Assembly (NCBI RefSeq): GCF_001907675.1
Contig: NZ_MPNT01000038.1
Span: 1-52,168 of the forward strand
Length of the DNA stretch: 52,168 nt
DNA from: Mycobacterium paraffinicum
GTDB taxonomy: Bacteria > Actinomycetota > Actinomycetes > Mycobacteriales > Mycobacteriaceae
Direction of reading: 5' to 3'
This document shows, one piece after another, positions 19,841 through 46,555 of this stretch (the first letter of the stretch is position 1; every line of letters starts with the position of its first letter). A program made the position numbers and the translations under genes. The notes beneath the pieces are model-generated. The model was not told the DNA's origin and made no database searches. It saw only the letters and a list, made by a program, of their open reading frames with translations.

Positions 19841-19932
19841 CAGTGGCGATGCTCAACGTTTCCGCCCTATAAAGGCTAACCTTTCGCCGGCAATTCGCCA
19901 GGGAGACGGGGGTAGGAGGGGAGGGCGGTTCG

Positions 19933-22827: not shown

Positions 22828-25800
22828 GTGATCGCCGGGGCGGTCTGCGTCAGCGCCAGGAACGCGCCCAAGTCGATCAGGCCCGCGGGCGTGCCGGGCA
22901 GGTACTCGGTCAGCAATTCCGAGCGCACGACGACGGCCGCGTACTGGGCGCGGCTGATGGCGACGTTGAGCCGGTTCCTGTTGAGCAGGAACGAGATTCC
23001 GCGTGGCACCGTGTCCGCGGTGGAGGCAGTCATGGAGATGAACACCACGGGCGCCTGCCCGCCCTGGAACTTGTCGACGGTGCCGACCCGGATTCCGTCG
23101 AGCCCGGCAACGGTCAACCGCCGGCGCAGCAGCGTCACCTGGGCGTTGTACGGCGCCAGCACCAACACATCGGAGGCGGTCAGTGGTCGGGTACCTCGCT
23201 CGTCGGTCCAGGCCGTGCCGAGCAGGCGTTCGATCTCGTCGGCGATCGCGTCGGCCTCCTGCGGGCTATCGGTCGAATTGCCTTGGTGCTCAACCGTGAT
23301 CGTCCGCACTCCCGGCGGGTATCCGGCAAGGCGTCGCTCGGCGGTGCACTCGTGCGAGTGCAGCCTGCCCTCGTAGGACAGCGCGGACACCGCGGCGCAG
23401 ATCGCCGGATGCATGCGGTAGGAGCGGTCCAGGAAATATCCGCGCTCGTCGGGCAGGGTGCTCCAGCCGTCGACCAGCCAGTCGAGCGCGGACGTGTCGA
23501 CGGGGTCGGGATGGGTGCCTTGGCTGACCTGCGGCAGCTGCCGGGGATCGCCGAGCAGCAACAGGTTGGCCGCGGCCGGCGCCACGGCAATGGTGTTGGC
23601 CAGACAGAATTGGCCGGCCTCGTCGATCACCAGCAGGTCGAGGCCGCCCGGCGGCACCCGATTGGCGTTCGCGAAATCCCATGCGGTGCCGCCCAGTACG
23701 CAGCCGGGGGTGTCGGCGATGAACGCGGCGTAAGCGCTGCTGTCGATCTCCTGCCAGCGCGGGGCGCGGTGGTCGTTGCGTTTCTTCGCCACTCGCTGCG
23801 GGTCCAGCCCGGCGTCGAGCACACAGTCCAGCAGGTTCTCCACCGTGGCATGCGATTGCGCCACCACGCCGATCCGCCAGCCATGGTCGGTGGCCAGGCG
23901 CCCGACCACGCGCCCGGCGGTGTGCGTCTTCCCGGTGCCGGGCGGCCCGTGCACGGCCAAATACGACGAGTCCAGGTCGAGCAGGGCCGCCGTGATATCG
24001 GCGACGGTGTCGGCGCCGCGGGGCAGTGCGGAGCCGCTGCGGGTGCGCGGTGCGCGGCGCAGCAGGATGTCGAGGGCGGCGCTGCGGGGTAGCCGCGGCA
24101 AGCCGGCGGCCACGGCGGTGGCCGTGGACTCGATCGAGTCCCGCAGCGCGGTCGTCGGAATCGGCGGGCCGGGGGTCAGCGCGAACGGGAGTTGGTGAAA
24201 GGGCTTGCCGTCGTTGCCCACTCGTTCCACGATGGTGACTTCGGTGGGCAGCGCCGGATCGTCGGCGGCGATCACCGTGGCGCGCCCGGCCGCGCGCCGG
24301 TCGGGATCGTCGGACATGCCCGGCGGGGCGGGCGGGTCATAGAGGGTGAAGACGTCGGTCATCAGCTCACCGCGTGCGAGTTCGCCGCGCAGTCGCACCC
24401 GTCGCTGCGGCTTGCGGGCGCGCGGCGGCGTGTTCCAGCCCGCGGTGACCGACGCATCTTCCGCGACGAACACGTCGGTGTTGTCCGCCCATTCCTCCAC
24501 GGGGAAGTTCAACCGATCGAAGTGGGCCCACCAGAACGGCTTGTCCTCGCGCCGGTGGTAGCCGCGCGCCGCGGCCAGCAGCGCCACCGCGGTCTGCTCG
24601 GGCGTGCGCTCGCTCGCGGCGGCGTCGCCGGCGAACGTTGAGAGGGTCACCGCCAGCCGGTCGCGGTCGTCGACGGTGTTGCCGCCCCGCACGGGCTGTG
24701 CGCCGATCGGCACGACGCCGGATTCATAGGCGCGCAACATCAACCAGTTACGCAGTTCCTGGGTCGAGCGGCAGTCGTAGTGGTTGTAGTCCTCGATCTC
24801 CTTGAGCACGGAGGCGGCGTCGTCGCCGCGTCCGTCGGCCCGCAGCTCGCAGTACCGGGCGTAGGAGGTGATCGAGCCGGTGGCGGTGGTGACGTCGCCG
24901 GAGCGTAGCTGCGCCCCCATGTAGAGCGGCTCCAGCGCCTTCAGGCTGAACGACTCCGCGCCCACTCGAATGCTCTTGCGTACCAAGGGGTAAAGGTCGA
25001 CCAAGGTTCCGCTGCGCAGCAGCTCGTCAACCTGGTCCTCGCCGACCCCGTAGCGGCCGGCGAGCCGCAGCAACGCGGTCTTCTCGTACGGCGCGTAGTG
25101 GTAGATGTGCATGTGCGGCCGGCGCTTGCGGCGCTTGGCCACCATCGCGAGGAAATCCGTCAGGGCCTTGCGTTCCTCCACCCGGTTATGCGCCCAGATC
25201 GGCCGAAACGCACCGGCGGGCCCGGCCTCCAGGACACCGAAGAGGTATTCCAGGCCCCACTCCTTGCCGTCGACGGTCCACAGCGGATCGCCCTCGAAGT
25301 CGAAGAACAGGTCGCCCGGGTCCGGTTCGGGGAGCAGCGTCAAGGGCTGCGGGTCGACGATCTCGAACCGCGGTGTGCCGGTCTCGCGCTGGCGGACTTG
25401 AAGTCTCGCCTGGGCGGTCAACTTGCCGACCGCGACCGGCGCCAGGTCCGGCACCGGGCCGGCGTGCTGGGCCAGCCCGGTCACCGTGGTGATGCCGGCG
25501 CCGATCAGCTTGTCCCGCTGGCCCACTCGCATGCCGGCGACCAGGAGCAGATCGTCGGTGGCACGCAGCTGCTCGGTGCACAGCGGACAACGCAAACACG
25601 CGCCCACGCCCTCGTCGTCCCAGCGAACGGCGGCGCCGCCGGCGTGGTGCGTGTCGAGGAGCAGCTGCAACCGCGCCCGCTGGGAGCGGTAGACCGGAAT
25701 CAGGTCGTGGATCCGATAACGCGCGACGGTTTCGTCGCCCAGGTGCAGTTCGGCCTCGGGCGCCACCGGGAGGCCCGAGGCGGCCAGCGCGTCGGCGTAG

Positions 25801-26243
25801 GCCGCCAGCTGCAAGAGCGCGGTGACGTTGGCCGAACGGGCCAGCTTGGTGTCGATGACCCGGTACTGCTCGCCGTCGCGCACCAGAAAGTCGGCGAAAC
25901 CGACGAAACGGCCGTCGAACATGGCGGCCTGATAGACCACGGGCGCGCCGGTGGCGACGGCGCGCCGAGTCGCCTCTGCCGCCGCCGCGAGGCCGGCGGG
26001 CGTGTAGGCCGGGCGGCCGATGACCGCGACGCCATCGCCGAACTCGCCGCGCAGCCGGTCCAGTTCGCGCCGCTCGTGTTCGGTCCCGAGGGCGGCGGTC
26101 CGGGCGAGCAGGTCGTCCTCGACCGTGGCGGCCGGTGCCCAGCCGAGCCTGGCGTCGAAATCCCGCAACAACGCGTACTCGCAGCGGGCGGCGGCGGCGA
26201 GATCCGAGGCGCTGTACACGATGCTGTCGCCGGTGACGAACAC
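22824..26243 (-). CDS. Fe-S RecB-like nuclease / RNase H-like / SF1 helicase fusion (Rv1251c type)
   Basis: The product has 1139 residues, the length of M. tuberculosis Rv1251c. Domain 1 (1-225) is a Cas4/AddB-like PD-(D/E)xK nuclease. Asp118 in FADFL and Asp131-x-Lys133 in VIDTK form the active site, and Cys21 with Cys216-x2-Cys219-x2-Cys222 are spaced like a four-cysteine iron-sulfur cluster. Domain 2 (310-505) is an RNase H-like nuclease of the TM0106 class (FFDFEGDP at 313-320 and HYDC near 490). Domain 3 (750-1120) is a UPF1-like superfamily 1 helicase, with GPPGTGKT at 766-773, DEAG at 874-877, TVDKFQGGQ at 1055-1063 and NVAISRA at 1093-1099. All motifs are intact. A role in DNA end processing is inferred from the domains. 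The start is GTG; lprE lies 44 bases upstream. Confidence 0.92.
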
Positions 26244-27065: not shown

Positions 27066-28766
27066 ATGACCCTCCCGGACAGCTCGCCCGAGGCTGCCTC
27101 TACGACGTTTGCCGACCTGCAGATCCATCCCTCCGTCTTGCGGGCGATCGCCGACGTCGGCTACGAGTCACCCACCGGCATCCAGGCCGCGACGATTCCG
27201 GCGCTGATGGCGGGCTCGGACGTCGTCGGGCTGGCGCAGACGGGCACCGGCAAGACGGCGGCGTTCGCCATCCCGATCCTGTCCCGGATCGACGTCACCA
27301 GCACCGCGACCCAGGCGCTGGTGCTGGCCCCCACCCGGGAGTTGGCGTTGCAGGTGGCCGAGGCGTTCAGCCGCTACGGAGCCCATCTGCCGAAGATCAA
27401 CGTGCTGCCGATCTACGGCGGATCCTCCTACACCGTGCAACTGGCCGGGCTTAGACGCGGCGCCCAGGTGGTGGTCGGGACGCCCGGCCGGGTCATCGAC
27501 CATCTCGAGCGCGGGACGCTGGACCTGTCGCGGGTCGACTATCTGGTGCTCGACGAGGCCGACGAGATGCTCACCATGGGTTTCGCCGAAGACGTCGAGC
27601 GGATCCTCTCGGAAACCCCCGAGTACAAGCAGGTCGCCCTCTTCTCGGCCACCATGCCGCCGGCGATCCGCAAGCTCACCACCAAGTACCTGCACGACCC
27701 GCTCGAGGTCAGCACCAAAGCGAAAACCGCGACCGCGGAGAATATTTCGCAGCGCTACATCCAGGTCGCCGGCCCGCGCAAGATGGACGCGCTGACCCGG
27801 GTCCTGGAAGTCGAGCCGTTCGAGGCGATGATCGTCTTCGTGCGCACCAAGCAGGCCACCGAGGAGGTCGCCGAAAAGCTAAGGGCCCGAGGGTTTTCCG
27901 CGGCCGCCATCAACGGCGACATTCCGCAGGGCCAGCGCGAGCGGACCGTCGCCGCGCTGAAGGACGGCGGCATCGACATCCTGGTGGCCACCGACGTAGC
28001 CGCCCGCGGGCTCGACGTGGAGCGCATCTCGCACGTGCTCAACTACGACATCCCCCACGACACCGAGTCCTACGTGCACCGCATCGGACGCACCGGCCGG
28101 GCCGGGCGGTCGGGGACCGCCTTGCTTTTCGTGTCGCCCCGGGAGCGCCACCTGCTCAAGGCGATCGAAAAGGCAACTCGGCAAACCCTGACCGAGTCCG
28201 AGCTGCCCACCGTCGAGGACGTCAATGCCCAGCGGGTGGCGAAGTTCGCCGACTCCATCACCGACGCGCTGGGCCGTCCGGGCATCGATCTGTTCCGCAA
28301 GCTGGTCGAGGACTACGAACGCGAGCATGACGTCCCGCTGGCCGACATAGCGGCGGCGCTGGCGCTGCAGGCCCGCGACGGCGAGGAGTTCCTGATGGCG
28401 CCCGAGCCGCCACGCGAGCGGCGCGAGCGGCACACCGAACGCCGCGAGCGTCCCGAAAGATCCAGGCAGGACCGGACGTTCGCCACCTATCGGATCGCGG
28501 TGGGCAAGCGGCACAAGATCGGCCCGGGCGCGATCGTCGGCGCCATCGCCAACGAGGGCGGTCTGCATCGCAGCGATTTCGGCCACATCGCCATCGGCCC
28601 CGACTTCTCGCTGGTGGAGCTGCCGGCCAAGCTGCCCAAGTCGACGCTGAAAAAACTTGAACACACCCGAATTTCGGGGGTGCTGATCAACCTTCAGCCC
28701 GACCGGTCGGCGTCCAAGCCCCGCAGCCGCGACGGTCAGAAGCCCCGCAGGAAACACCCGGGATGA
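27066..28766 (+). CDS. deaD: DEAD-box ATP-dependent RNA helicase (Rv1253)
   Basis: The product has 566 residues. The Q motif is at about 15-41, AQTGTGKT at 57-64, PTREL at 89-93, DEAD at 163-166, SAT at 194-196, and HRIGRTGR at 338-345. An Arg/Glu-rich linker (about 425-455) leads to a DbpA-like RNA-binding domain (about 460-545) and a basic tail. By family, it unwinds structured RNA in ribosome assembly and cold adaptation. An out-of-frame ATG at 27059 is ignored. TAGACT nine bases before the ATG and the lack of a ribosome site suggest a leaderless message. The stop overlaps the acyltransferase start (ATGA). Confidence 0.94.
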   Translation: MTLPDSSPEAASTTFADLQIHPSVLRAIADVGYESPTGIQAATIPALMAGSDVVGLAQTGTGKTAAFAIPILSRIDVTSTATQALVLAPTRELALQVAEAFSRYGAHLPKINVLPIYGGSSYTVQLAGLRRGAQVVVGTPGRVIDHLERGTLDLSRVDYLVLDEADEMLTMGFAEDVERILSETPEYKQVALFSATMPPAIRKLTTKYLHDPLEVSTKAKTATAENISQRYIQVAGPRKMDALTRVLEVEPFEAMIVFVRTKQATEEVAEKLRARGFSAAAINGDIPQGQRERTVAALKDGGIDILVATDVAARGLDVERISHVLNYDIPHDTESYVHRIGRTGRAGRSGTALLFVSPRERHLLKAIEKATRQTLTESELPTVEDVNAQRVAKFADSITDALGRPGIDLFRKLVEDYEREHDVPLADIAAALALQARDGEEFLMAPEPPRERRERHTERRERPERSRQDRTFATYRIAVGKRHKIGPGAIVGAIANEGGLHRSDFGHIAIGPDFSLVELPAKLPKSTLKKLEHTRISGVLINLQPDRSASKPRSRDGQKPRRKHPG

Positions 28767-29902
28767 CCCTGTCGGAGGAACAAGACGCCCAGGGCGGACT
28801 CGAACAGACCGCCCATGTCGACCGGGTGGCGTCGCTGACCGGAATTCGCGCCGTGGCGGCCCTGCTCGTCGTCGGCACCCATGCGGCCTACACCACCGGC
28901 AAGTACACCCACGGCTACTGGGGGCTGGTCGGTTCCCGGCTGGAGATCGGCGTGCCGATCTTCTTCGTGTTGTCGGGCTTCCTGCTGTTCCGCCCGTGGC
29001 TGAAAGCCGCTGCCACCGGCGGCCCACCACCGTCGCTGAGTCGCTATGCGTGGCACCGGGTTCGGCGCATCATGCCCGCCTACGTCGTCACCGTGCTGTT
29101 CGCCTACGTGCTGTACCACTTCCGCGAGGCGGGACCCAACCCCGGGCACACGTGGCTCGGACTGGTGCGCAACCTGACGCTGACGCAGATCTACTGCAAC
29201 GGCTATCTCGGCAAGTACCTGCATCAGGGGCTGACCCAGATGTGGAGCCTCGCGGTGGAAGCGTCGTTCTATGTGCTGCTCCCGCTGCTGGCGTACGTGC
29301 TGTTGGTGCTCGTCTGCCGCCGGCGCTGGCAGCCGAGACTGCTGTTGGCGGCGCTGATCGGGCTGACGTTGATCAGCCCCGGCTGGCTCGTGCTCGTGCA
29401 CACCGATCACTGGTTTCCCGACGGCGCGCGGCTGTGGCTGCCGACGTACCTGGCCTGGTTCCTCGCCGGAATGTTGCTGGCGGTCCTGCAGGCGATGGGG
29501 GTGCGCGGGTACGCGTTCGTGGCGATACCGCTGGCGGTCGTCTGTTATTTCATCGTGTCCACTCCGATCGCGGGCGCGCCCACCACGTCGCCGGCGACGT
29601 TGAGCGAGGCGTTGTTCAAGACCTGCTTCTACGCCGTGATCGCCGCGCTCGCGGTGGCGCCACTGGCGCTGGGCGACCGGGGTTGGTACTGGCGGCTGCT
29701 GGCGACGCGGCCGATGGTGTGGCTGGGGGAGATCTCCTACGAGATCTTCCTGATCCACCTGATCACCATGGAGTTCGCCATGGTCTACATCGTGCGCGCG
29801 CACGTCTACACCGGCTCGATGCTGAACCTGTTCCTCGCGACGATGGTCGTGACGATTCCGCCGGCCTGGCTGCTGCACCGCTTCACCCGCGTGCCTACCT
29901 GA
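28763..29902 (+). CDS. Acyltransferase family 3 membrane protein (Rv1254)
   Basis: The product has 379 residues with about ten membrane segments. The family signature is present: IRAVAALLVVGTHA with His40 as the presumed catalytic residue, then GVPIFFVLSGFLLFRPW. LWSLAVE-type sequence (MWSLAVEASFYVLLP) lies in the middle, and EISYEIFLIHL near the end. Such enzymes O-acylate envelope sugars or lipids; the acceptor is unknown. ATGA overlap with deaD means the two are co-translated, although a functional link is not obvious. Confidence 0.9.
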   Translation: MTLSEEQDAQGGLEQTAHVDRVASLTGIRAVAALLVVGTHAAYTTGKYTHGYWGLVGSRLEIGVPIFFVLSGFLLFRPWLKAAATGGPPPSLSRYAWHRVRRIMPAYVVTVLFAYVLYHFREAGPNPGHTWLGLVRNLTLTQIYCNGYLGKYLHQGLTQMWSLAVEASFYVLLPLLAYVLLVLVCRRRWQPRLLLAALIGLTLISPGWLVLVHTDHWFPDGARLWLPTYLAWFLAGMLLAVLQAMGVRGYAFVAIPLAVVCYFIVSTPIAGAPTTSPATLSEALFKTCFYAVIAALAVAPLALGDRGWYWRLLATRPMVWLGEISYEIFLIHLITMEFAMVYIVRAHVYTGSMLNLFLATMVVTIPPAWLLHRFTRVPT

Positions 29903-29915
29903 GCGGACGCGGCGT

Positions 29916-30494
29916 CTAGCCCCGGACGGAGACCGGCGTGACGATCGGGACGACGAACTCCTCGATCATTGCCTTCTCGTCGGCCTCGTCGCGACCGGGG
30001 AACTGCAGCAGCGACGCGATCACCCGCACCACCCAGCGCGCCCGGCGCTCGACGATGGCGGGGTCTTCGGGCCCCAGCGAGCCGACGAACGCGGCGGCCA
30101 ACGCGGTGATCACCTCGGACTGCCCGGCCACCTCGGCGCCGATCGGCGGCCGGCTGACCGCGAACCACGAGGCCAACGCCCGGCTGCCGCGAACCATCCG
30201 CAGCGTGGCGGTGATGCTGGCGACCAGCCGCTCCCGGGGGTCGTCGATGCCGACGATCTGCTCCTTGATCGCGCGGCTGAGCCGACGGCTCTCGCGGTGC
30301 ACGTAGGCGGTCCGCAGCGCCTCCCGGCTCTCGAAGTATCGGTACAGCGTGGCGCGGGAACACCCTGCGGCCCTGGCGATTTCGTTCATGCCGACCGACG
30401 CCTGATCGCGCTCGGTGTAGAGCTGCTCGGCCGCGTCGAGGATCCGGTCCGCGGCGGCTTCGCTGCGGTGCGCGCTCAGCCAGTCGTTCGGCAT
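29916..30494 (-). CDS. TetR regulator coupled to cyp130 (Rv1255c)
   Basis: The product has 192 residues. Residues 15-60 are the TetR DNA-binding domain, with the helix-turn-helix MNEIARAAGCSRATLYRYF. The C-terminal ligand domain is helical and specific to this lineage. The ATG at 30494 shares one base with the cyp130 stop (TGATG), so it is translated by reinitiation after cyp130. The longer open frame upstream is antisense-like and lies inside cyp130. It probably represses its own operon; the ligand is unknown. Confidence 0.9.
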   Translation of the reverse strand: MPNDWLSAHRSEAAADRILDAAEQLYTERDQASVGMNEIARAAGCSRATLYRYFESREALRTAYVHRESRRLSRAIKEQIVGIDDPRERLVASITATLRMVRGSRALASWFAVSRPPIGAEVAGQSEVITALAAAFVGSLGPEDPAIVERRARWVVRVIASLLQFPGRDEADEKAMIEEFVVPIVTPVSVRG

Positions 30495-31735
30495 CAGGGC
30501 GTCACCCGGATCGGTACAGACAGCGGACGCCGCACATAACTGCCGCCCGACCAGACGATCGCGGACTCGTCCACCTCGAAATCCGGGCAGCGGGTGAGCA
30601 GTTCGGTCAGGGCGACCCGCGATTGCATCCGCGCCGCCGCTGCGCCCAGGCAATGGTGTGCGCCGTGGCTGAAGGTCAGGATGTTGCGCGGGCAGCGGGT
30701 GACGTCGAGCTCGCCCGCGTCGGGGCCGTACTGCCGCTCGTCCCGATTGGCCGACCCATACAACAGGAAAACCTTGCGGCCGGCCGGGATCGTGGTGTCG
30801 CCGATCGTCACGTCGCGGGTGGTCGTGCGGGCCAGCCCCTGCACGGGCGAGGTGAGCCGCAGCAGCTCCTCCACCGCGTCCGGGATCAGGCCCGGATCCT
30901 CGACGAGAAGCCGTCGCTGGTCGGGCCGTTGATGCAGCAAAGGCATTGAGCCGCCCAGCATTCCGGTGGTGGTGTCATTGCCGCCCGTGACCATGGTGAA
31001 CGTGAAGGCCAGCACGGACAACGTGCCGGCGATGTCGCCGTTGGCGCCGACGCCGGCGGCCACCAGGTGCGAGATGGTGTCGTCCTCGGGCTCGCTGCGG
31101 CGGCGCTCGATCAGCTCGGTGAAGTAGCCCATCATGGACCCGACCGCGTCGCCCACGGTTTCCAGCGCCCCGGCCACCCCGCCTTCCGCGGTGTTGGCCG
31201 CCACGATGACATCCGTCCACCAGTCGAATTGCGCCCGATCCGCTTCGGGGACACCCAGGTAGTGGGCGACCACCATCGACGGCAGTGGTTTGAACAGCTC
31301 GGTGACGATGTCGCCACCGCCGTCCGCGCGCAGCCGCTCGATGCGCTCGACGACGAACTCACGCACCTTGGGCTCCACCGCCTCAACCTGGCGTGGCGTG
31401 AAGCCGCGCGACACCAGTTTGCGAAATTCGGTGTGTACCGGCGGATCCTGCATCACGAACGGTGGATTGTCTTGCAGCCCGATCATTTCCAGGTCGCCAT
31501 AATTGACCGTCAGACCCTGCGCGGAGGAGAAGGTCTCGTGGTCGCGCGCCGCGGCCCACACGTCGGCGTGCCGGGACAGCACGTAGTAGTCATGCTCGGG
31601 CCGGTTGGCCGGGACGACGTGGTGCACCGGATCGTGGTCGCGAAGCGCTCGGTACATCGGCCAGGGATCCGCCCAGGTGTCCGCAGTGGCCAACTCGAAC
31701 GTGACGGGTGCGTCGTGAGACATAACCGCAGCCAT
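30494..31735 (-). CDS. cyp130: Cytochrome P450 CYP130
   Basis: The product has 413 residues and is very close to M. tuberculosis CYP130. The I-helix GGNDTTT begins at 251 and ExxR is at 290-293. The heme loop FSHGAHHCLG carries axial Cys362. By family, it is a soluble haem monooxygenase; the physiological substrate is unknown, and it needs a separate ferredoxin or reductase not encoded nearby. I kept the first ATG (MAAVMSHD) because a strong promoter ends six bases before it. A second ATG lies four codons on. It forms an operon with the TetR gene downstream. Confidence 0.95.
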   Translation of the reverse strand: MAAVMSHDAPVTFELATADTWADPWPMYRALRDHDPVHHVVPANRPEHDYYVLSRHADVWAAARDHETFSSAQGLTVNYGDLEMIGLQDNPPFVMQDPPVHTEFRKLVSRGFTPRQVEAVEPKVREFVVERIERLRADGGGDIVTELFKPLPSMVVAHYLGVPEADRAQFDWWTDVIVAANTAEGGVAGALETVGDAVGSMMGYFTELIERRRSEPEDDTISHLVAAGVGANGDIAGTLSVLAFTFTMVTGGNDTTTGMLGGSMPLLHQRPDQRRLLVEDPGLIPDAVEELLRLTSPVQGLARTTTRDVTIGDTTIPAGRKVFLLYGSANRDERQYGPDAGELDVTRCPRNILTFSHGAHHCLGAAAARMQSRVALTELLTRCPDFEVDESAIVWSGGSYVRRPLSVPIRVTP

Positions 31736-31741
31736 GTCTCA

Positions 31742-31770
31742 TTCGTACGACAACATACCGAAAATGTCAA
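31742..31770 (-). promoter_or_regulatory. cyp130 promoter with consensus -35 and palindrome
   Basis: On the minus strand, TTGACA (31765-31770), a 17-base spacer and TACGAA (31742-31747) precede the ATG by six bases. The perfect palindrome TCGTACGA (31743-31750) overlaps the -10 and is a candidate operator for the TetR protein of this operon. Confidence 0.55.
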
Positions 31771-31934
31771 CAGGGTTGGTGAGGTGAAACCACACCACAC
31801 TGAGCGTGAAAAGCACGGCACGGGCTGCCGCAACCGGCCTATCGTTGGCCGTCCCGCGCATCGCGTGGATTCACGGTCTAGTCATGACCATGCGGGCCGA
31901 AACGCCCGCGCCGGTGCACTACTGGACCGACTGG
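31771..31934. other. Spacer between cyp130 promoter and gcvH stop
   Basis: No convincing gene, hairpin or RNA was seen here. A short plus-strand open frame from 31806 runs antisense into gcvH and has no coding character. Confidence 0.5.
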
Positions 31935-32330
31935 TCAATCCCCAACGTGGGCTCGGTAAGCATCCGCATCCAGCAGTTCGCCGAGGCGCGCCTCAACCGA
32001 CCCCGCGTCGGCGCGTAGCTCGAGCAGCCAACCCTCTCCGTAGGGATCAGAGTTGACAAGGCTTGGGTTCTCCCTCAAGTCACTATTGACCGCAACGACC
32101 TTCGCGGTGATCGGGGCATAGAGGTCGGACACCGACTTCGTGGACTCCACCTCGCCGAAGGACTCGCCCGCCGTCACATCGGAACCGGCATCGGGCAGCT
32201 GGACGAACACGACATCACCGAGTGCGGACTGCGCATAGTCGGTGATGCCGATGCGTACGGTGTCATCGCCGGTGCGCTGCACCCACTCATGCTCTTCGGT
32301 GTAGCTCAAATCAGCTGGGAATGCGCTCAT
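31935..32330 (-). CDS. gcvH: Lipoyl carrier protein, GcvH-like
   Basis: The product has 131 residues and is a full-length glycine-cleavage H-protein fold. YTEEHEWV opens it, [19 protein letters not shown] follows, and Lys65 in [14 protein letters not shown] is the lipoylation site. The C-terminus has [13 protein letters not shown]. It closely resembles the housekeeping GcvH of mycobacteria, so by sequence it should be lipoylated. No gcvP, gcvT or lipoyl ligase is adjacent. It overlaps the redoxin gene by 20 bases, with AAGGAGGG just before its ATG. I infer a second, specialised lipoyl carrier working with the redox enzymes around it. It could also be a redundant copy for glycine cleavage. Confidence 0.88.
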
Positions 32331-32979
32331 CGCCCTCCTTGGCTCCATGGTTGCGCAAGCTTTCGGTTCCTGATCCGTCTGTTCCGCACCACGGCTCACC
32401 CACCCCGGTAGCGGGGGGCGAATACGGGTAGTGCCTCGACCGGTCCCCGTCGTCCCAGGCCTGGCGCAGGCCCGGCGCTAACGGATCCCAATCGGGGCGA
32501 ATTTCGCGAGTCACCTCACGAAGATCGCGCCGCAAGTCCTCAAAAGACGGCCGGCCCCAAAACCAGTAGCCGTTATAGATGCTATGGATTACCAAGCCGG
32601 GCTTCAGCACGAAGGTATGGGGAACCATCGGATCGTGATGCGGATCCGTGTACTCCTGGATCTGCAGGTCCTTCTGGACCTTGCGGCCGGCGTCGGAGAG
32701 GAAAGTCCATTGCGCCCCGACGGATGCGCGAAACTCTGCGGTTTCCACGATGTTGTCGGTTGAAATCGTCACGATCGCGGTGTACGCAACCGCGATCTTG
32801 GAGTAGTTGACGGACAACTCGAGGTGCTGCTGGTGATCCTTCGGGCAGAAGTGTCCGCGCGACAGCAACAGGACCATGGGGTCGATTCCTTGCAGTTCGC
32901 TCAGCCGTCTCCTGACTTTGGCGTGATCGGTCAGCTCGTAATCCGGGAACACCGCGCCCGGAACAATGTCGTCTCGCAA
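32311..32979 (-). CDS. Redoxin-domain protein (AhpC/TSA-like) upstream of gcvH
   Basis: The product has 222 residues. The thioredoxin fold starts at the N-terminus, with [16 protein letters not shown] carrying the presumed peroxidatic Cys45. [17 protein letters not shown] is the typical central strand pair. A second cysteine, Cys198, lies in a C-terminal extension that overlaps gcvH. Resolution could use Cys198 or an outside thiol. The start is TTG at 32979, chosen because AAGGAGA lies at the right distance and the protein then begins as expected for the fold. I read it as a peroxide or thiol reductase; the true substrate is unknown. Confidence 0.8.
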
Positions 32980-33055
32980 GACGCTCTCCTTCGATTCTTT
33001 CGTGCAACCAGGCGGACCAGGATCGGCGTCATTGCGTTATCAGCGGGACTCAATT

Positions 33056-34246
33056 TCATGGCGTGTCAACGGTTTTATATTCACGAGTTTCCGGCCGGGC
33101 TATGTTCGGCACGCCGGCGACTTCCCAGTCTTTGACCGTTGCGACAGGCCCGAACACATCGGCGGGCACATCAGGCGACAGAGGTTGGCCGGTTAGCACG
33201 CGGCGCGGCCAGTCCCGGTTGGCCAGCGCGGGTTTGGCCAGGGCGACGACATCGGCGGTGCCGGAGTCGATGATCGTGGCGGCGTCGCGGGGGTCATCGA
33301 GGTGGCCGTTGGCAATGATCGATAGGCCGCTGTACTGCTTGGCAAGCTCAGCCAGCGTCCTGGCAGTGTTATCGAAAGCTGGTGCCAGGGACCGGTATTC
33401 GGTGGTGTGGATGTAGTCGATGCCGGTGTCGGCCAGCGCGGTGAATATCGTGGCCGCGTCCTCCTCTCCGCCGGCCCACCGATGATGGTTGTCCGAAACC
33501 TTTCCCTGGGAGATGCGGATACCCACAGCCATGTCCGCCCCGACCGCAGCTACGACATCGGCGCAGACCTCGGTGGCCAAGCGAATTCGGTTGGTGACGC
33601 TACCCCCGTAGGCATCAGTGCGCGTATTCATGTAGTCGGTGAGGAATTCGTCGAGCAAATATCCGTTGGCGCCATGAATCTCCACACCGTCGAATCCCGC
33701 GTCGCGTGCCAACCGGGCCGCGTTGACAAACGCGGCGCGGACCTGGCCGATCTGCTCAGTGGTCATCTCTTCGGGAATCCGGAAGCCGCCCGATCCGCGG
33801 TACATGGACAGCTGCTCGCCTTTGGGGCGCACTGCCGAGGGACCCCAGGTTGTGGTGGTGTAAGAGTTGCCTTGGGACTGGCTTCCGGCATGCATCAATT
33901 GGGCGAAGAACCTCGCACCGGACGCATGGACGCCCTCGACGACCCGTTTCCACGCCGCGGCCTGAGCGGGATTCGTGATGCCGGGCTGGAAAAAGTAGCC
34001 CTGGCTGGTCTGGTCATCGATATAAAGACCTTCGGTGATCAACAGCCCAAAGCCACCGTCAGCGAAAACCCGGTAATAGGCGCCGATCCGATCGGTGGGA
34101 ACACCTTCGGCTGTTGCGCTTACCCTGGTCATCGGCGCCAGGGCGATGCGGTTGGTCAGGTCGACTTCCCCGATGGTTGTGGACTCGAAAAGGGATTCGT
34201 AGCGTGCACTTTGCTGGTCGGGCATGGACTTACTCATCTTGGGCAT
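33056..34246 (-). CDS. Old Yellow Enzyme family NADH:flavin oxidoreductase
   Basis: The product has 396 residues and is an FMN-binding TIM barrel. The ligands expected for the family are visible: NRIALAPMTR near the N-terminus, AQLMHAGSQS at about 115-124, HGANGYLLDEF at 191-201 (the substrate-binding His191/Asn194 pair) and NTRTDAYGGSVTNR. By family, it reduces activated C=C bonds or nitro compounds with NAD(P)H. It lies 76 bases upstream of the redoxin gene on the same strand. Of three closely spaced ATGs I kept the first. The gene has somewhat more A/T-rich codons than its neighbours, in keeping with transfer. Confidence 0.9.
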   Translation of the reverse strand: MPKMSKSMPDQQSARYESLFESTTIGEVDLTNRIALAPMTRVSATAEGVPTDRIGAYYRVFADGGFGLLITEGLYIDDQTSQGYFFQPGITNPAQAAAWKRVVEGVHASGARFFAQLMHAGSQSQGNSYTTTTWGPSAVRPKGEQLSMYRGSGGFRIPEEMTTEQIGQVRAAFVNAARLARDAGFDGVEIHGANGYLLDEFLTDYMNTRTDAYGGSVTNRIRLATEVCADVVAAVGADMAVGIRISQGKVSDNHHRWAGGEEDAATIFTALADTGIDYIHTTEYRSLAPAFDNTARTLAELAKQYSGLSIIANGHLDDPRDAATIIDSGTADVVALAKPALANRDWPRRVLTGQPLSPDVPADVFGPVATVKDWEVAGVPNIARPETREYKTVDTP

Positions 34247-34302
34247 CGAATCACGGTGGGGTCAAATAGAATTGGGGAGCATCGGATTTTCTCGACCTTG
34301 AC

Positions 34303-34788
34303 TCACCGAGCTTCGGGGTGCTCGGTCACATATCGGATGAAGCCGATCACGTCGTCGGCCACCAGTCGTCCGATGGCCCCGCTCGAGTACACGGCGAGGC
34401 ACACCCGCCCGTCGGGCGTCAGGATGAAGCCGGTCGATTGCAGATAGTGCGGATCGTCGTTGACGTAGGCACCGAGCGCCGCGGCGACCTTGTCGGCGTC
34501 GACGCTGTGGCCGACCGGAAACCGCAGTCTGCGCTTGGCGACGAGCGCGGCGGATGTGTCCTCGTCATCGACAGAAAAGGCGACCACTTTCGCGTTGACC
34601 TCGCTCAGCGCGTCGAGCGCGCGCGAGAACGCGGCGAGCTGCGCGTTGCAATAGGGGCACCAGGACCCGCGGTAGATCAAGATGACGCCGTAGGAGCCGG
34701 TGAGGTCATCCGGCAGCGAGATCATGCCGCCACCGACGGCGGGAATGTCGAGAGGCGGGAAAAGCTGGCCGTGGCTGAGTCGAGGCAT
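34303..34788 (-). CDS. Peroxiredoxin with CxxC (AhpC/TSA family)
   Basis: The product has 161 residues. IYRGSWCPYCNAQLAAF carries Cys44 and Cys47 in a CPYC arrangement, and GFILTPDGRV is the second half of the thioredoxin fold. This subgroup is typically annotated as peroxiredoxin-like or thioredoxin reductase-like. The ATG at 34788 has AAGGACG upstream; an earlier ATG at 34812 has no ribosome site. Its promoter region carries the near-identical element found also at the TetR/hydrolase promoter, which suggests control by the TetR protein next door. Confidence 0.88.
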   Translation of the reverse strand: MPRLSHGQLFPPLDIPAVGGGMISLPDDLTGSYGVILIYRGSWCPYCNAQLAAFSRALDALSEVNAKVVAFSVDDEDTSAALVAKRRLRFPVGHSVDADKVAAALGAYVNDDPHYLQSTGFILTPDGRVCLAVYSSGAIGRLVADDVIGFIRYVTEHPEAR

Positions 34789-34814
34789 CGGCGTCCTTGA
34801 TCGGTGATTCATTG

Positions 34815-34863
34815 ACTAGTCGCCATCATCCTGGGACAAAACTGGACTGACAATTACAATTGG
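34815..34863 (-). promoter_or_regulatory. Shared operator/promoter, copy A (peroxiredoxin)
   Basis: On the minus strand, TTGTCA (34848-34853), a 17-base spacer and GATGAT (34825-34830) form a promoter for the peroxiredoxin gene. About 49 bases here match copy B (35706-35755) with roughly five differences, including an unbroken 21-base core that contains CTGGACTGACAATT. Conservation of the whole spacer points to a bound regulator, most likely the adjacent TetR. Confidence 0.7.
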
Positions 34864-35058
34864 CCGCGTCATTGCCGTCCAAGAACCGCTGCCGCGCTAC
34901 GTCCACTTGCGAAAGACCGCGGTTAGGGACATACGTTGAGGCAGAACATCTTCGAGAACCCGTTGTCGCGGATATGCCGGGGCGATTCGACGAGCGCTCA
35001 ACGCAGGCAAGACAAGGCGCGGAGTCGCCGAATTGCGAACGACATCGGCGCGATGGCC
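34864..35058. other. 195-base gap between peroxiredoxin promoter and TetR stop
   Basis: No gene was recognised. Short open frames on both strands exist (for example 34826-35074, minus), but none has a recognisable motif, ribosome site or codon bias. The base composition is less G+C-rich than the flanks. It may be degenerate sequence. Confidence 0.4.
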
Positions 35059-35691
35059 TCAGTTCGTGCTGCACCGGTATCCGGCGACGTGCCCCAGGGC
35101 CATGCCGAGGGCGAGTTCGAGGGGACGGGCGCTACGCGTGGTCTGGGCCATGAGCAGCCCGCCTTGCAGCGCACTCATCATGGTTAACGCGAGATCGTCC
35201 ACGTCGGCCTCTTCGGCGAGTTCGCCATTGTCGCGCATCACCGCGAAACCCGCGGACAGATAAGACTGCCATTCGGCGAAGGATCGTGCGAGCTCATGTC
35301 GGGCCGCCTCCGATCGGTCGGCGAGCTCGCTCACCAGCGAGCCGAGTGGACAGCCGCCGATGCCATTGGTCTCGCGGACCATGCTCACGAGATGATCACA
35401 CCAGCGCTGCAGGCCATCCCACGAGGACAGCTCGCTCAGCAACGGTTCCTGGGCCTCGATGACGCGGCCCAACTGGGTCTTGATCACTTCGCCGATAAGC
35501 GCGTCTTTGTTGTCGAAATAGTGGTACAGCTGCGACCGGCTGGTGCCGGTAGCCGTCATGACCGCGTCCAGACTCGTCCCCGCCACGCCGTGCTCCCGGA
35601 CGAGGGATGCCGCACCGTCCACGATGCGAGCCTTGGTCGCCGCGCCGCGCACAGTCAGCCGCGCGCTAGGACGACCCGCCTTCGACGCCAC
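35059..35691 (-). CDS. TetR-family regulator of the redox island
   Basis: The product has 210 residues. Residues 17-63 form the DNA-binding domain, with LDAVMTATGTSRSQLYHYF as the helix-turn-helix. The C-terminal part has the LmrA/YxaF-like TetR_C pattern (GGCPLGSLVSELAD, then a long helical core). The start is GTG at 35691, six bases after TAATGT, so the message is likely leaderless. It sits between two copies of an almost identical promoter element, one before its divergent hydrolase neighbour and one before the peroxiredoxin. I infer that it represses both and itself. Confidence 0.9.
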   Translation of the reverse strand: MASKAGRPSARLTVRGAATKARIVDGAASLVREHGVAGTSLDAVMTATGTSRSQLYHYFDNKDALIGEVIKTQLGRVIEAQEPLLSELSSWDGLQRWCDHLVSMVRETNGIGGCPLGSLVSELADRSEAARHELARSFAEWQSYLSAGFAVMRDNGELAEEADVDDLALTMMSALQGGLLMAQTTRSARPLELALGMALGHVAGYRCSTN

Positions 35692-35697
35692 GGCCGC

Positions 35698-35703
35698 ACA
35701 TTA
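35698..35703 (-). promoter_or_regulatory. Leaderless -10 element of the TetR gene
   Basis: TAATGT on the minus strand (within GGATAATGTG) precedes the GTG at 35691 by six bases. It lies immediately beside shared operator copy B. Confidence 0.5.
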
Positions 35704-35705
35704 TC

Positions 35706-35755
35706 CGAATTGGAATTGTCAGTCCAGTTTTGTCTCAGCATGATGGCGAGTAGTC
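35706..35755 (+). promoter_or_regulatory. Shared operator/promoter, copy B (hydrolase, TetR)
   Basis: TTGTCA (35716-35721), a 17-base spacer and CATGAT (35739-35744) drive the plus-strand hydrolase gene. The region is the inverted twin of copy A at 34815-34863 and lies in the TetR/hydrolase divergent region, where a bound TetR could control both directions. Confidence 0.7.
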
Positions 35756-35854
35756 AGCGCACCGCCGTGAAGGATGCCGCGCCGCTATCTAGCTGTGGCA
35801 CAGGCCATTACGGGACGTTTGAGGGTGCATAACGCCCGTGAGAAAGGAGCCATG

Positions 35855-36586
35855 ATGGGTCGCGAATCAGCGAAACCCGCAATCGTGCTGGTCCACGGGG
35901 CCTTCGAAGATGGGTCGATCTGGAATCGCGTGATCCAGCGGCTTCAGCACGAGGGCTATCCGGTCGTCGCCTTCGCCAACCCGCTGCAGGGGGTGGCGGT
36001 CGATGCCGCCCACCTGCGCAGCATGACCGAAAGAATCGACCGGCCGATGATCCTGGTGGCCCATTCCTACGGCGGAGCCGTCATTACGCAGGCCGGCGCG
36101 GACGACCCCATGGTGAAGGGCCTGGTATACGCGGCCGCGGTGATGCCGGCGGCCGGCGAGTCGGCAAGCCAGTTGCTCAGCCGGTACCCGGGCAGTTCTT
36201 TCCTGACGTCAGTCGAGCAAGTCGATTACAGGCTGCCCGGCGGAACAAGCGGCTCGTATCTGCTCTATCAGCCCGACAAGTTCCACAGCCAGGTCGCGGC
36301 CGACGTGCCCGCGAGCGAGGCCGCCTTGATGGTCGCCACGCAGCGCCCGATGAACGTGGCGGCGCTGAACGAGACAGTGACGGCCGCCGCCTGGACGAGT
36401 AAGCCAAGCTGGCAGATCAGGACCCTGCAAGATCTCGCACTTCCGGTCGCCGAACAGAAATTCGAAGCCGACCGTGCCCATTCCCACGTTACTGAGGTGA
36501 ACTCGTCGCACGCGGTCACCGTCTCTAGCCCGGACGTCGTGGTCGACGTCATCGCACAGGCCGCCGCGGGCCCAGCCGCGCTGTGA
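35855..36586 (+). CDS. Alpha/beta-fold hydrolase
   Basis: The product has 243 residues. The oxyanion HGA is near residue 14, the nucleophile elbow AHSYGGA has Ser71, and the catalytic His is 219 in SSHAVTVS. The acid is probably Asp193, which is less certain. The family includes small esterases close to EstC; the substrate is unknown. GAAAGGAG lies five bases before the ATG at 35855; the ATG at 35852 is too close to it. It is transcribed divergently from the TetR gene from a promoter it shares with the peroxiredoxin. Confidence 0.88.
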   Translation: MGRESAKPAIVLVHGAFEDGSIWNRVIQRLQHEGYPVVAFANPLQGVAVDAAHLRSMTERIDRPMILVAHSYGGAVITQAGADDPMVKGLVYAAAVMPAAGESASQLLSRYPGSSFLTSVEQVDYRLPGGTSGSYLLYQPDKFHSQVAADVPASEAALMVATQRPMNVAALNETVTAAAWTSKPSWQIRTLQDLALPVAEQKFEADRAHSHVTEVNSSHAVTVSSPDVVVDVIAQAAAGPAAL

Positions 36587-36744
36587 CTGGGGTCTATCGG
36601 GTGGCGGTGCCGGCGCCACAACGTGCCTCGGGCCAGCGACGTCGACGACGGTGCGGCAGCTGTCTGGCGTTCCGTCTGCCGCAAGGAGTCGAATCAGCGT
36701 GATGACGGCAGCCATATCTGAGTTGGACAGGGGAGACCAGTGAC

Positions 36745-37206
36745 ATGAGCAAACCCGCAGACCATCTCACATTCCTTGAGCGAGTGGTACTTTCACGCAT
36801 CGTGAGGGTGCACACCTTCGGCTATCGAAAGACGCGCGGCCTGATCGGACACCATGTTCCCGGCATGCCCGCCAGTCTGCTCCTGCACACAGTGGGTGCC
36901 ACGACGGGCATCGCTCGGACCGCGGCCCTTACTTACGCGCGCGACGGTGGCGACTTTCTCGTCGTGGCTTCCTGGGCTGGTGCGCCGGTCGCTCCCGGCT
37001 GGTATCACAACCTGCAAAGGAGGCCGGCCGCGCACATCAATGTCGGAAGACAACGAATCCCGGTGATAGCTCGGGCAGTACTTCCTGGAGAGCCCGACTA
37101 CGGCCGGTTGTGGCGAATTGTCAACGATAACAATGCAAACAACTACGATGCCTACCAGCAACGCACGTCGCGGCCAATTCCGATTGTGCGGTTGACTCCG
37201 GCGTGA
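36745..37206 (+). CDS. Deazaflavin (F420)-dependent nitroreductase family protein, Ddn type
   Basis: The product has 153 residues. Family blocks: LLLHTVGATTGIARTAAL, FLVVASWAGAPVAPGWYHNLQ and PDYGRLWRIVNDNN. Ddn-type proteins bind reduced F420 and reduce quinones or nitro compounds at the membrane. GGGGAGACC precedes the ATG. It closes the redox island and is convergent with the FAD-linked oxidase. Its C-terminal 45 residues resemble a gene remnant at 46556-46721. Confidence 0.88.
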   Translation: MSKPADHLTFLERVVLSRIVRVHTFGYRKTRGLIGHHVPGMPASLLLHTVGATTGIARTAALTYARDGGDFLVVASWAGAPVAPGWYHNLQRRPAAHINVGRQRIPVIARAVLPGEPDYGRLWRIVNDNNANNYDAYQQRTSRPIPIVRLTPA

Positions 37207-37272
37207 ACGGCTTGGGAGCCGACCAGCCTGGCGCCGATCGCTACGGAGCTCGTGCAGTCCGCGGCCTCAGTT

Positions 37273-37296
37273 TCGAGCGTCAGCTCGGGCGCTCGA
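37273..37296. terminator. Hairpin between Ddn-type gene and FAD-linked oxidase
   Basis: TCGAGCG (37273-37279) and CGCTCGA (37290-37296) form a perfect seven-pair stem in the convergent gap 37207-37305. It is a candidate bidirectional terminator. Confidence 0.4.
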
Positions 37297-37305
37297 GTGA
37301 AAGCG

Positions 37306-38673
37306 TCAGATGCCCGCCCCCGGGTTGAGGATGCCCTTCGGGTCCAGGGCCTGCTTGATGCGCCGGTTGAGGTCCATCACCTCGGGCCCGAGGTAGCCGG
37401 CCAGCCACGGCCGCTTCAGCCGGCCGACGCCGTGCTCACCGGTGATCGTGCCGCCGAGCCCGACGGCGAGGTCCATGATCTCGCCGAAGGCGAGATTGGC
37501 CCGCTCGGTCATCGCGGCATCCGCGGGGTCGTACACGATCAGCGGGTGGGTGTTGCCGTCACCGGCGTGGGCGATGACCGAGATGGTCAGGTCGCGTTCG
37601 GCCGCGATGTCCGCGATGCCGGTGACCAACCGGCCCAGCGCCGGCAGGGGCACCCCGACGTCCTCGAGCAGCAGCGACCCCTTGGCCTCCACGGCGGGAA
37701 TGCAGAACCGGCGGGCGGCGACGAACGCCTCGCCCTCGTCGGGGTCGTCGGTCGAAAAGACTTCCGTCGCACCGCTTTCCGCGAATACGGCGGCTATCAC
37801 CGCGGCGTCCTCGCTGCCCGCGCGCCCCCGTTCGTCGGAGCCGGCCACCAGCATGGCGGCCGCGCCGCGATCCAGGTCCATGCGCAGGGTGTCCTCGACG
37901 GCGTTGATCGCCACCGAATCCATGAACTCCAGCATCGAGGGGCGCAGCCGGGCGGTGACGCCGAGAACCGCCTCGACGGCCGCCTCGATCGTCGGGAAGG
38001 AGGCCACCACGATGCTGGACGCGTTCTGCTTGGGCACCAGCCGCAGCGTGACCTCGGTGACGACACCCAGGGTGCCCTCGCTTCCGACGAAGAGCTTCGT
38101 CAGCGAAAGCCCGGCCACGTCCTTGAGCCGGGGGCCACCGAGCCGGACCGCAGTCCCGTCGGCCAGCACCACCTGCATGCCCAGCACATAGTCGGTGGTG
38201 ACCCCGTACTTGACGCAGCACAGCCCGCCGGCATTCGTGGCGATGTTGCCGCCGATGCTGCAGATCTCGAACGACGACGGATCGGGCGGATACCACAGGC
38301 CGTGCTCGGCGACGGCCTTCTTGACCTCGGCGTTGAACAATCCCGGCTGACAGACCGCGGTGCGGGTCACCGGGTCGACGGTGATGTCACGCATCTTCTC
38401 CGTCGACAGGACGATGCCGTTGTCCAGCGCCGTCGCGCCGCCGGACAGCCCGCTGCCGGCCCCCCGGGTCACCACCGGCACGCCATGCGCACAGGCCCAG
38501 CGCAACACGGCCTGCACGTCCTCGGTGCGGCGCGGGCGGACCACGGCCAACGGTTTGCCGGCCGACGGGTCGAGGGCGCGGTCCTGGCGATAGCCCTCCG
38601 TGACGGTCGGGTCGGTGACGACCATGCCGTCGGGCAGGCCGGCAATCAGCTCGGCCAGCGGGTCTGCGGTCAC
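37306..38673 (-). CDS. FAD-linked oxidase, GlcD/D-lactate dehydrogenase type (Rv1257c)
   Basis: The product has 455 residues, as in M. tuberculosis. The FAD-binding PCMH domain is shown by VVTRGAGSGLSGGATAL at about 67-83 and by SIGGNIATNAGGLCCVKYG. The C-terminal cap has VIAHAGDGNTHPLIVYD and ITGEHGVGRLKRPWL, with the His ligands of this oxidase class. By family, it oxidises a 2-hydroxyacid such as glycolate or D-lactate. The start is GTG at 38673. It is divergent from the SHOCT gene. The Tap efflux gene that follows in M. tuberculosis (Rv1258c) is not here. Confidence 0.92.
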   Translation of the reverse strand: MTADPLAELIAGLPDGMVVTDPTVTEGYRQDRALDPSAGKPLAVVRPRRTEDVQAVLRWACAHGVPVVTRGAGSGLSGGATALDNGIVLSTEKMRDITVDPVTRTAVCQPGLFNAEVKKAVAEHGLWYPPDPSSFEICSIGGNIATNAGGLCCVKYGVTTDYVLGMQVVLADGTAVRLGGPRLKDVAGLSLTKLFVGSEGTLGVVTEVTLRLVPKQNASSIVVASFPTIEAAVEAVLGVTARLRPSMLEFMDSVAINAVEDTLRMDLDRGAAAMLVAGSDERGRAGSEDAAVIAAVFAESGATEVFSTDDPDEGEAFVAARRFCIPAVEAKGSLLLEDVGVPLPALGRLVTGIADIAAERDLTISVIAHAGDGNTHPLIVYDPADAAMTERANLAFGEIMDLAVGLGGTITGEHGVGRLKRPWLAGYLGPEVMDLNRRIKQALDPKGILNPGAGI

Positions 38674-39459: not shown

Positions 39460-40272
39460 GTGCTCGTCCACCCTCGTACCGGCCAGGCGTTCGATTCTCC
39501 AGTGGTTCCCGGCACCGGTTGGCCGGGGGATCCGGCGACCCCGCGGACACCGGTGGCCGCCGACGCCGCGCAGGTCGCCGCGTTGGCTCCTCGGGCCGCG
39601 TCGATCCCCGAACTCGACGCCTTGATCAGCGTCTGCCGCGCGTGCCCGCGGCTGGTCGACTGGCGCGAGGATGTCGCCGCGCTGAAGCGCCGCGCCTTCG
39701 CCGACCAGCCGTATTGGGGCCGGCCGGTGCCGGGCTGGGGCTCGGAACGCCCGCGGCTGCTGATCGTCGGGTTGGCGCCGGCCGCGCACGGGGCCAACCG
39801 GACCGGGCGCATGTTCACCGGGGACCGGTCCGGCGATCAGCTGTACGCGGCACTGCACCGGGCCGGGCTGGTGAACCAACCGACCAGCGTCGATGCCGCG
39901 GACGGGTTGCGGGCCAACGCGGTTCGGATCTCCGCGCCGGTGCGGTGCGCTCCGCCGGCGAACGCTCCGACGCCGGCGGAACGCGACACCTGCTGGCCGT
40001 GGCTGGAAGCCGAATGGCGGCTGGTGTCCGAGCACGTGCGCGTGATCGTGGCTTTGGGCGGATTCGCCTGGCAGATCGCGCTGCGGCTGCCGGGCGCGTC
40101 CGCGATGCGCAAGCCGCGATTCGGCCACGGGGTCGTTGCGCAATTCGCGCCCGGTGTGCGGCTACTCGGCTGTTACCACCCGAGCCAGCAAAACATGTTT
40201 ACCGGTAGGTTGACACCAGCAATGCTCGACGACGTTTTCCGGGACGCGAAAAGGCTGGCAGGGATTAAGTGA
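39460..40272 (+). CDS. udgB: Family 5 uracil-DNA glycosylase UdgB
   Basis: The product has 270 residues. Cys59, Cys62, Cys163 and Cys178 are the iron-sulfur ligands of family 4/5 UDGs. Motif 1 is [19 protein letters not shown] (about 104-122) and motif 2 is [13 protein letters not shown] (about 238-250), as in UdgB. It removes uracil, hypoxanthine and related bases from DNA. GTG at 39460 is the only usable start; an in-frame stop lies upstream at about 39388. The stop overlaps the FAD monooxygenase start by GTGA. Confidence 0.93.
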
Positions 40273-41387
40273 CTGACGTTCTGATTTCCGGCGCCAGTGT
40301 GGCCGGTGCAACGGCGGCTTATTGGCTTGGACGGCACGGCTATTCGGTCACCGTGGTGGAGCGCCACCCCGGGCCGCGGCCGGGCGGCCAGGCGATCGAC
40401 GTGCGTGGGCCGGCGCTGGGAGTGCTGGAACGCATGGGGCTGCTGGCCGCGGCGCAGAAGCGCAAGACGCAAATTCGCGGCGCTTCGGTCGTCGACCGCG
40501 ACGGCAACGAGCTGTCCCGAGACACCGAGGCGACACCGACCGGCGGACCCATCGACAGCCCCGACATCGAGCTGCTGCGTGACGACCTCGTCGAATTGCT
40601 CTACGGCGCAAGCCAATGGACGACCGAATACGTCTTCGACGACACCATCACCGGCCTCGAGGACGACGGCGCCGCCGTCAACGTGACCTTCGAACGCGCG
40701 CCCGCGCGCAGCTTCGACTTGGTCATCGGGGCCGACGGATTACACTCCAACGTGCGGCGGCTGGTGTTCGGCCCCGAGGAGCAATTCATTGAGCGGCTGG
40801 GCACCCACGCGGCGATCTTCACCGTGCCCAATTTCCTGGACCTCGACTATTGGCAGACCTGGCACTACGGGGACTCCACGATGGCCGGGGTCTACAGCGC
40901 CCGCAACAACGCCGAGGCCCGGGCCATGCTCGGTTTCATGGAAACCGATCTGCGGATCGACTACCGGGACACCGAGGCGCAGTTCGCCGAGCTGGAACGG
41001 CGGATGGCAGACGACGGCTGGGTGCGTCCCCAGTTACTCGAATACATGCGCAGCGCACCTGACTTCTACTTCGACGAGATGTCGCAGATCAAGATGGACC
41101 GCTGGTCGAAGGGCAAGGTCGCGCTGGTCGGCGACGCCGGGTACTGCTGCTCGCCGCTCTCGGGTCAGGGCACCAGTGTCGCGCTGCTGGGCGCCTACAT
41201 CCTGGCCGGCGAGCTCGCCGCTGCCGGTGACGACTACGAACTCGGCTTCGCCAACTACCACAAAGAGTTCAACGACTACGTCAAGCGCAACCAATGGCTG
41301 GTCGTCGACAACATCCCGGGTGGGGCGCCCATCCCGCAGGAGGTCTTCGACCGCATCGTCAGCTCGATCACCCTCAAGGACTACTGA
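40269..41387 (+). CDS. FAD-dependent monooxygenase (Rv1260 type)
   Basis: The product has 372 residues, matching M. tuberculosis Rv1260. The FAD-binding N-terminus reads [27 protein letters not shown]. The middle [15 protein letters not shown] is the DG motif, and [18 protein letters not shown] is the GD motif. This is the PHBH-type aromatic/polyketide hydroxylase class; the substrate is unknown. It is translationally coupled to udgB, although there is no clear functional link. A large inverted repeat follows it. Confidence 0.92.
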
Positions 41388-46463: not shown

Positions 46464-46555
46464 GCCCGCTCCAGCCGATCGGCGCCGTGTGGTGAGCAAC
46501 CGGGAGGAGTTCACCGCGCGTTACAGGAGAATAAACCTCCGCGCGGCGTTCGAGG

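Follow-up and report, generated by a model that had tools for sequence, protein, structure and literature searches.

We analysed a stretch of 52,168 nucleotides from Mycobacterium paraffinicum (contig NZ_MPNT01000038.1), hereafter the window, in which a minus-strand run of redox genes ends in gcvH, encoding a lipoyl carrier protein. The gene order on this strand is tetR, prx2, a gene of the Old Yellow Enzyme (OYE) family, a redoxin gene and, last of the run, gcvH, with intergenic gaps of 56 nt between prx2 and OYE and of 76 nt between OYE and redoxin; a promoter-like element heads the same-strand run that gcvH closes (Table 1). We favour, with a probability of roughly 55%, the reading that this is an acquired, mosaic, TetR-controlled detoxification operon, in which a peroxiredoxin-OYE core is followed by a one-Cys redoxin and an extra copy of canonical GcvH.

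A redox gene cluster in an inserted island

Pfam matches (PF00724, PF00578) agreed with the initial annotation of this DNA in placing an OYE and a peroxiredoxin with a CxxC motif, which reads CPYC, upstream of the redoxin on the same strand. Its statement that sirtuin, macrodomain, lipoyl ligase and gcvP/T genes are missing nearby was likewise borne out, as Pfam scans of 32 open reading frames (ORFs) of the window turned up no domain of a sirtuin, a macrodomain protein, an LplA-type ligase or gcvP/T. These are part of the window's ORFs, 20 of them at E 1e-6; they include the 12 ORFs of 27066-38673 that we treated as genes, and some may not be genes.

The cluster lies in a low-GC inserted island of about 31.77-37.28 kb. 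On its flanks are a P450 gene (30494-31735) and an FAD-oxidase gene (37306-38673). In a survey of 11 hand-picked genomes, ten held both flanking genes, and in nine of these ten nothing but about 60-190 bp separates them. Homology to these sites stops at 31752-31773 and restarts at 37278-37308 (blastn against genomes G001, G140, G241, G209 and G062). Over 31935-34246 the GC content falls to 0.616, the 1-kb median being 0.682, and only 1.1% of segments of that size are as low; the lowest-GC 1-kb segment starts near 32200. In two relatives that carry the cluster, its position differs from that in the window: G140 has it at 0.40 Mb and the P450/FAD-oxidase site at 4.93 Mb of one contig, and G001 has the two on different contigs. 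The P450 gene was ruled out as a member of the operon, since it belongs to the flank and adjoins the FAD-oxidase gene in empty sites. Insertion of the integrase type was also rejected: the two junction stretches have no repeat of at least 9 bp in common, and no tRNA gene was found in 30-39 kb. The tenth genome, G062, carries 7.4 kb with other genes between P450 and FAD-oxidase (L158, 1870-9270). This is a different gene set at the same site, which may therefore be an insertion hot spot.

The element 5' of prx2 is repeated between tetR and the divergent gene for an alpha/beta hydrolase, and these two copies are 92% alike across 49 bp (E 6e-14). A 31-bp pattern built from sites in the window, G001 and G140 matches both window copies and nothing in shuffled sequence. 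With up to two mismatches allowed, it occurs at eight sites in 7 of 396 genus genomes, the reversed control giving none; five of the seven are new, the other two, G001 and G140, being sources of the pattern. Genus sets here and below are samples of a larger group, and the flanks read are often short. The element stands at both places in G001 and before prx2 in G140. A scan for the sigma-70-like promoter within it (TTGTCA-17-GATGAT) is weak by itself, with 2 found against 0.8 expected in shuffles; the case for the element rests on the repetition of the whole.

When the context was read at the element-bearing genomes, the same prx2 followed the element in all seven, a tetR gene (85-90% identical) stood beside prx2 in six, and OYE followed in six, the exception being G118. 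We therefore define the core as TetR-element-prx2-OYE, with the element as a putative TetR target. What follows the core varies. None of the queried genes was found there in G106, G252, G269 or G118; G041 has a flavoprotein, recovered in two tblastn pieces; G001 has the redoxin and a shortened flavoprotein; G140 has redoxin, gcvH and flavoprotein; and the window has redoxin and gcvH. Judged by these gene orders, redoxin, flavoprotein and gcvH are optional additions to the TetR-peroxiredoxin-OYE core. Trees of OYE and redoxin did not resolve the order of gain and loss among the window, G140 and G001. The OYE frames at L001 (6726-7886) and L002 (6864-7978) contain in-frame stops, and the redoxin there is open; the flavoprotein of L001 (8739-9964) is shortened.

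The cluster has the look of an operon under assembly: the core and its recognisable control element recur at several chromosomal positions, and the cargo behind them changes from genome to genome, a foreign lipoyl carrier being one such item. By way of the 31-bp element the regulon can be tested directly.

The extra GcvH and the one-Cys redoxin

The initial annotation had described a full-length GcvH with a lipoylation site at Lys65, and this stands: the 131-residue protein scores above both NCBIfam cut-offs (157.6 bits against 115.85 for TIGR00527 and 173.9 against 117 for NF002270). It has lysines at 65 and 77, the former within ESTK, the conserved ExxK context, and it contains no Cys. A gcvH match was found in 244 of 248 genus genomes, 22 of which have two or more matches. 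The gene adjoins garA at 47 of 60 loci examined; among the remaining 13, four belong to other genera, one is a contig fragment and one is the copy next to the redoxin in G140. Among the best 20 genus loci, 19 are beside garA and the exception is again the redoxin-linked copy of G140, a genome that holds a garA-linked copy as well.

In phylogenetic trees the window GcvH forms a clade with six database GcvHs, two of them named M. simiae, and with the redoxin-linked copy of G140. Support was 91/94 in the first tree, from which the fragment L089 had been dropped, and 94/93 in the second, which omitted 12 divergent or partial rows including L089 and in which the bootstrap had not settled. In the first tree this clade is nested in a starred group (97/90) with garA-linked GcvHs and GcvHs named Mycolicibacterium. 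Approximately unbiased (AU) tests rejected joining the clade with G140's own garA-linked copy (p 0.0013) or with a set of five such copies, among them the ones from G140 and G001 (p 0.00017). By trees and AU tests together, therefore, the window GcvH did not arise by recent duplication of the housekeeping gene. The GC content of the gene is 0.621, and that of the linked copy in G140 is 0.606, against a minimum of 0.625 across 47 garA-linked copies. With the island location, the 19 garA-linked loci and the second copy in G140, these results suggest that the window gcvH is probably an accessory copy acquired from a lineage of Mycolicibacterium type and not the housekeeping gene, much as had been supposed. 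Since these copies fall in one clade, it was probably gained by the cluster once.

Although away from garA and gcvP/T and placed in a redox island, the window copy resembles other members of TIGR00527 in its full length, its ESTK lysine, its score above the equivalog cut-off and its constraint. Between the linked gcvH genes of the window and G140, synonymous divergence (dS) is 0.62 and the ratio of nonsynonymous to synonymous divergence (dN/dS) is 0.222. Pairs of garA-linked genes at similar dS have a median dN/dS of 0.205, and 41% equal or exceed the window-G140 value (626 non-independent pairs from 44 sequences). Across 59 GcvH sites that are nearly invariant, the five linked copies compared have a departure in common at the start residue alone. 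By these measures the window GcvH is an ordinary constrained H protein with no sign of specialisation. Its default client would be glycine cleavage; gcvP is present in all three relatives tested (G140, G001 and G002). Further second copies of gcvH, with neighbours judged by eye, lie in a gcvT-gcvH-glyA-like order (L150, L152), near P450- and SnoaL-like genes (L147) or adjoining a metK-like gene (L148, L149).

The redoxin gene does overlap gcvH by 20 bases, as first annotated; the description of the two as fused did not survive. The redoxin has 222 residues, its conserved part spans about 32407-32979, and the last 30 or so residues, which give rise to the overlap, have no counterparts in relatives. 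Most of the 120 relatives among the matches listed are about 190-200 residues long, and the close ones align over about 86% of the redoxin, up to the start of its additional tail. In G140 the two genes are separated by 211 nt, which speaks against a meaning of the overlap, and AGGAGG precedes the gcvH start in both genomes. A minor alteration of the redoxin gene's 3' terminus in the window lineage would account for the overlap.

That Cys45 is the only obvious active-site cysteine was substantiated by an alignment of 47 redoxins, in which it is the single invariant Cys (L024 was excluded for a stop, several other rows were excluded and four were added). An external thiol is therefore needed for recycling. 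The protein has a peroxiredoxin fold in its AlphaFold model (pLDDT, predicted local distance difference test, 93), with Cys45 at the peroxidatic position; a first model from 20 close sequences reached a pLDDT of 36 and was discarded. Typical peroxiredoxins have Thr or Ser three residues before the peroxidatic Cys. The redoxin has Gly there, within RGHFC, and its peroxidase activity is accordingly termed putative. Two redoxin homologues from ENA records, P0001 and P0009, have internally repeated segments, reflecting duplication or an assembly artefact.

What the linked carrier may do

In the operon that we favour, the genes from prx2 to gcvH would be transcribed together, and an electrophile or oxidant would release TetR. 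OYE would then reduce activated alkenes or similar compounds, and both peroxiredoxin-like proteins would reduce peroxides. With no resolving Cys in the redoxin, oxidised Cys45 would most likely be recycled by a general cellular thiol, mycothiol/mycoredoxin being the default reductant in mycobacteria, as for AhpE. The latter is presented in the passages available from PMC4360819 as a one-Cys peroxiredoxin reduced by mycoredoxin/mycothiol; it and the window redoxin share 18% identity and differ in a CPKD motif. The host would lipoylate the extra GcvH, giving more H-protein or lipoyl-carrier capacity under operon control.

Some observations weigh against this reading. The operon of G140 has no tetR within the 19 kb read. 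The GcvH clade is unstarred and is based on 131 columns, and the groups for the AU tests were picked with the first tree already in view. Finally, redoxin and gcvH stand side by side in two genomes whose clusters occupy different chromosomal places, and M. simiae, known here from protein records alone, has both redoxin (P0002, P0003) and GcvH (P0122, P0123), the records of P0002 and P0122 agreeing in contig count (4) and longest contig (5,788,994) and those of P0003 and P0123 in longest contig (274,973); a functional tie between them is therefore possible. Conserved redoxin-gcvH adjacency, which the initial annotation had proposed to look for, was not found: a GcvH profile placed GcvH within 5 kb, contig ends permitting, at 1 of 81 redoxin loci (not dereplicated), and tblastn at 0 of 80, so that a module conserved across bacteria was rejected. 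Within the genus, 7 of 396 genomes have the redoxin, and one of these shows gcvH in the flanking sequence read, which for most extends to about 1.5 kb; a search of family genomes aimed at the M. simiae locus matched 1 of 401, namely G140. Among the matches listed, the openly licensed literature that we searched contained no description of the arrangement.

How much gcvH contributes can be read in several ways. It may have entered by chance as passive cargo, with no specific contribution, its adjacency to the redoxin across species going back to one event. The single GcvH clade, and hence the probable single gain, is what this would predict; the six other genomes with the core have no gcvH beside it, and stray second copies occur elsewhere in mycobacteria, such as the one near a metK-like gene noted above. 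Yet the gene has stayed open under ordinary purifying selection over the divergence that separates the window from G140, and we consider chance entry improbable. It is more improbable still, to the point that we give it hardly any weight, that the window gcvH is the host's only copy, a foreign replacement of the garA-linked gene, as G140 retains both.

A more specific proposal, which we regard as tentative and rather unlikely, makes GcvH the dedicated dithiol donor of the TetR-controlled operon: electrons would pass from NAD(P)H through an Lpd-type flavoprotein and lipoyl-GcvH to the one-Cys redoxin, to OYE or to both. The initial annotation had suggested that the lipoyl arm supplies thiols to the redoxin. 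The parts of that suggestion which hold are the single invariant Cys, with its need for an external thiol, and the place of gcvH in the run; the lack of GcvH at 80 of 81 redoxin loci and of any shared departure beyond the start residue at the near-invariant GcvH sites tell against it. In G140 the members of such a relay stand in a row, redoxin-gcvH-flavoprotein; the window has no flavoprotein, so that host Lpd would have to serve, and the G001 locus has no GcvH. Of 81 redoxin loci, not dereplicated, 21 have an Lpd/MerA/GR-family flavoprotein no more than 5 kb away (E<1e-40), nearly all flavoprotein matches listed have Cx4C, and such genes are few, numbering 6, 6 and 9 in three mycobacterial genomes (E<1e-20). 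The G140 flavoprotein carries the redox-active Cx4C in GGECRHWGCIPSK, but it scores below the cut-off of the Lpd model TIGR01350 (252.9 against 408.8 bits) and has F where two members with HIHPTVSE have H.

Precedents for a relay exist. In the portions of PMC4518038 to hand, the binding of GcvH-L to OYE depends strictly on its lipoylation; the SirTM/macrodomain/LplA2/GcvH-L/OYE/LLM operons described there likewise have an H-type lipoyl carrier near OYE in a redox setting, whereas the window has a canonical GcvH and a one-Cys redoxin, and its 32 scanned ORFs have no sirtuin, macrodomain or ligase. Lipoylated proteins reduce Ohr, according to the extracts of PMC5962072. Contrary to what the initial annotation supposed, a lipoyl-dependent peroxide defence would not be new to mycobacteria, because the NADH-Lpd-DlaT-AhpD-AhpC chain of M. 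tuberculosis is already described (PMC12028322, in the sections seen). The likeness goes no further than that of a would-be mycobacterial lipoyl-dependent peroxidase chain: in those sections the carrier is an E2 component working with the AhpD adaptor, whereas the window has an H protein and no adaptor, and its chain is hypothetical. LbpA, a further GcvH-like carrier outside glycine cleavage, serves Hdr-like sulfur oxidation and, some archaeal members excepted, has two conserved Cys in the account excerpted from PMC6067878, unlike the Cys-free window GcvH. Were the carrier to feed the redoxin, the short list of lipoyl proteins that are known to drive thiol peroxidases would gain GcvH, in a chain based on GcvH rather than on an E2 protein.

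One-Cys redoxins are often found near a Cx4C flavoprotein, commonly with GGECSYWACIPSK (L015, L018, L046, L048, L060, L061 and others); in comparing these neighbourhoods, clusters that looked to be antisense or frame-shifted readings of these genes were removed by eye. The two may possibly form a redoxin-reductase pair across phyla.

Remaining features of the window

Table 1. Features of the cluster and its surroundings, with the evidence for each
Feature	Coordinates	Strand	Evidence
Inserted island (approximate bounds)	31774..37277	.	blastn to empty sites; adjacency of flank genes
gcvH	31935..32330	-	131 aa; PF01597, TIGR00527, NF002270; trees, AU tests
Lys65 codon of gcvH, presumed lipoylation site	32136..32138	-	codon read from sequence
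Redoxin frame/gcvH overlap, 20 nt	32311..32330	-	no such overlap in G140
Redoxin, one-Cys peroxiredoxin-like	32311..32979	-	PF00578; AlphaFold pLDDT 93, peroxiredoxin fold
OYE family oxidoreductase	33056..34246	-	PF00724
prx2, peroxiredoxin-like with RGSWCPYC	34303..34812	-	PF00578 and PF08534
Promoter/operator-like element 5' of prx2, including TTGTCA-17-GATGAT	34824..34854	-	
TetR-family regulator	35059..35691	-	PF00440, PF16925
Second copy of the element, tetR/abhydrolase intergenic	35715..35745	+	
Alpha/beta hydrolase (abhydrolase), divergent from tetR	35774..36586	+	PF12697
F420H2-dependent quinone reductase-like	36745..37206	+	PF04075; 79% relative near G140 cluster

A role in anti-phage defence was considered and set aside, PADLOC giving no match for four proteins. 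Elsewhere in the window, 16023-19856 (minus strand) encodes a fusion of the 2-oxoglutarate decarboxylase/dehydrogenase type with E1 and acyltransferase domains, which we take to be Kgd, and 22824-26243 (minus) a protein that combines a RecB-like nuclease of the TM0106 type with a helicase-like region. An FAD-binding protein at 40269-41387 (plus) scores above the PRK05868 cut-off, its resemblance to tetracycline destructase being far below cut-off. A 1324-residue open frame with GGDEF and EAL domains occupies 42540-46514 (minus).

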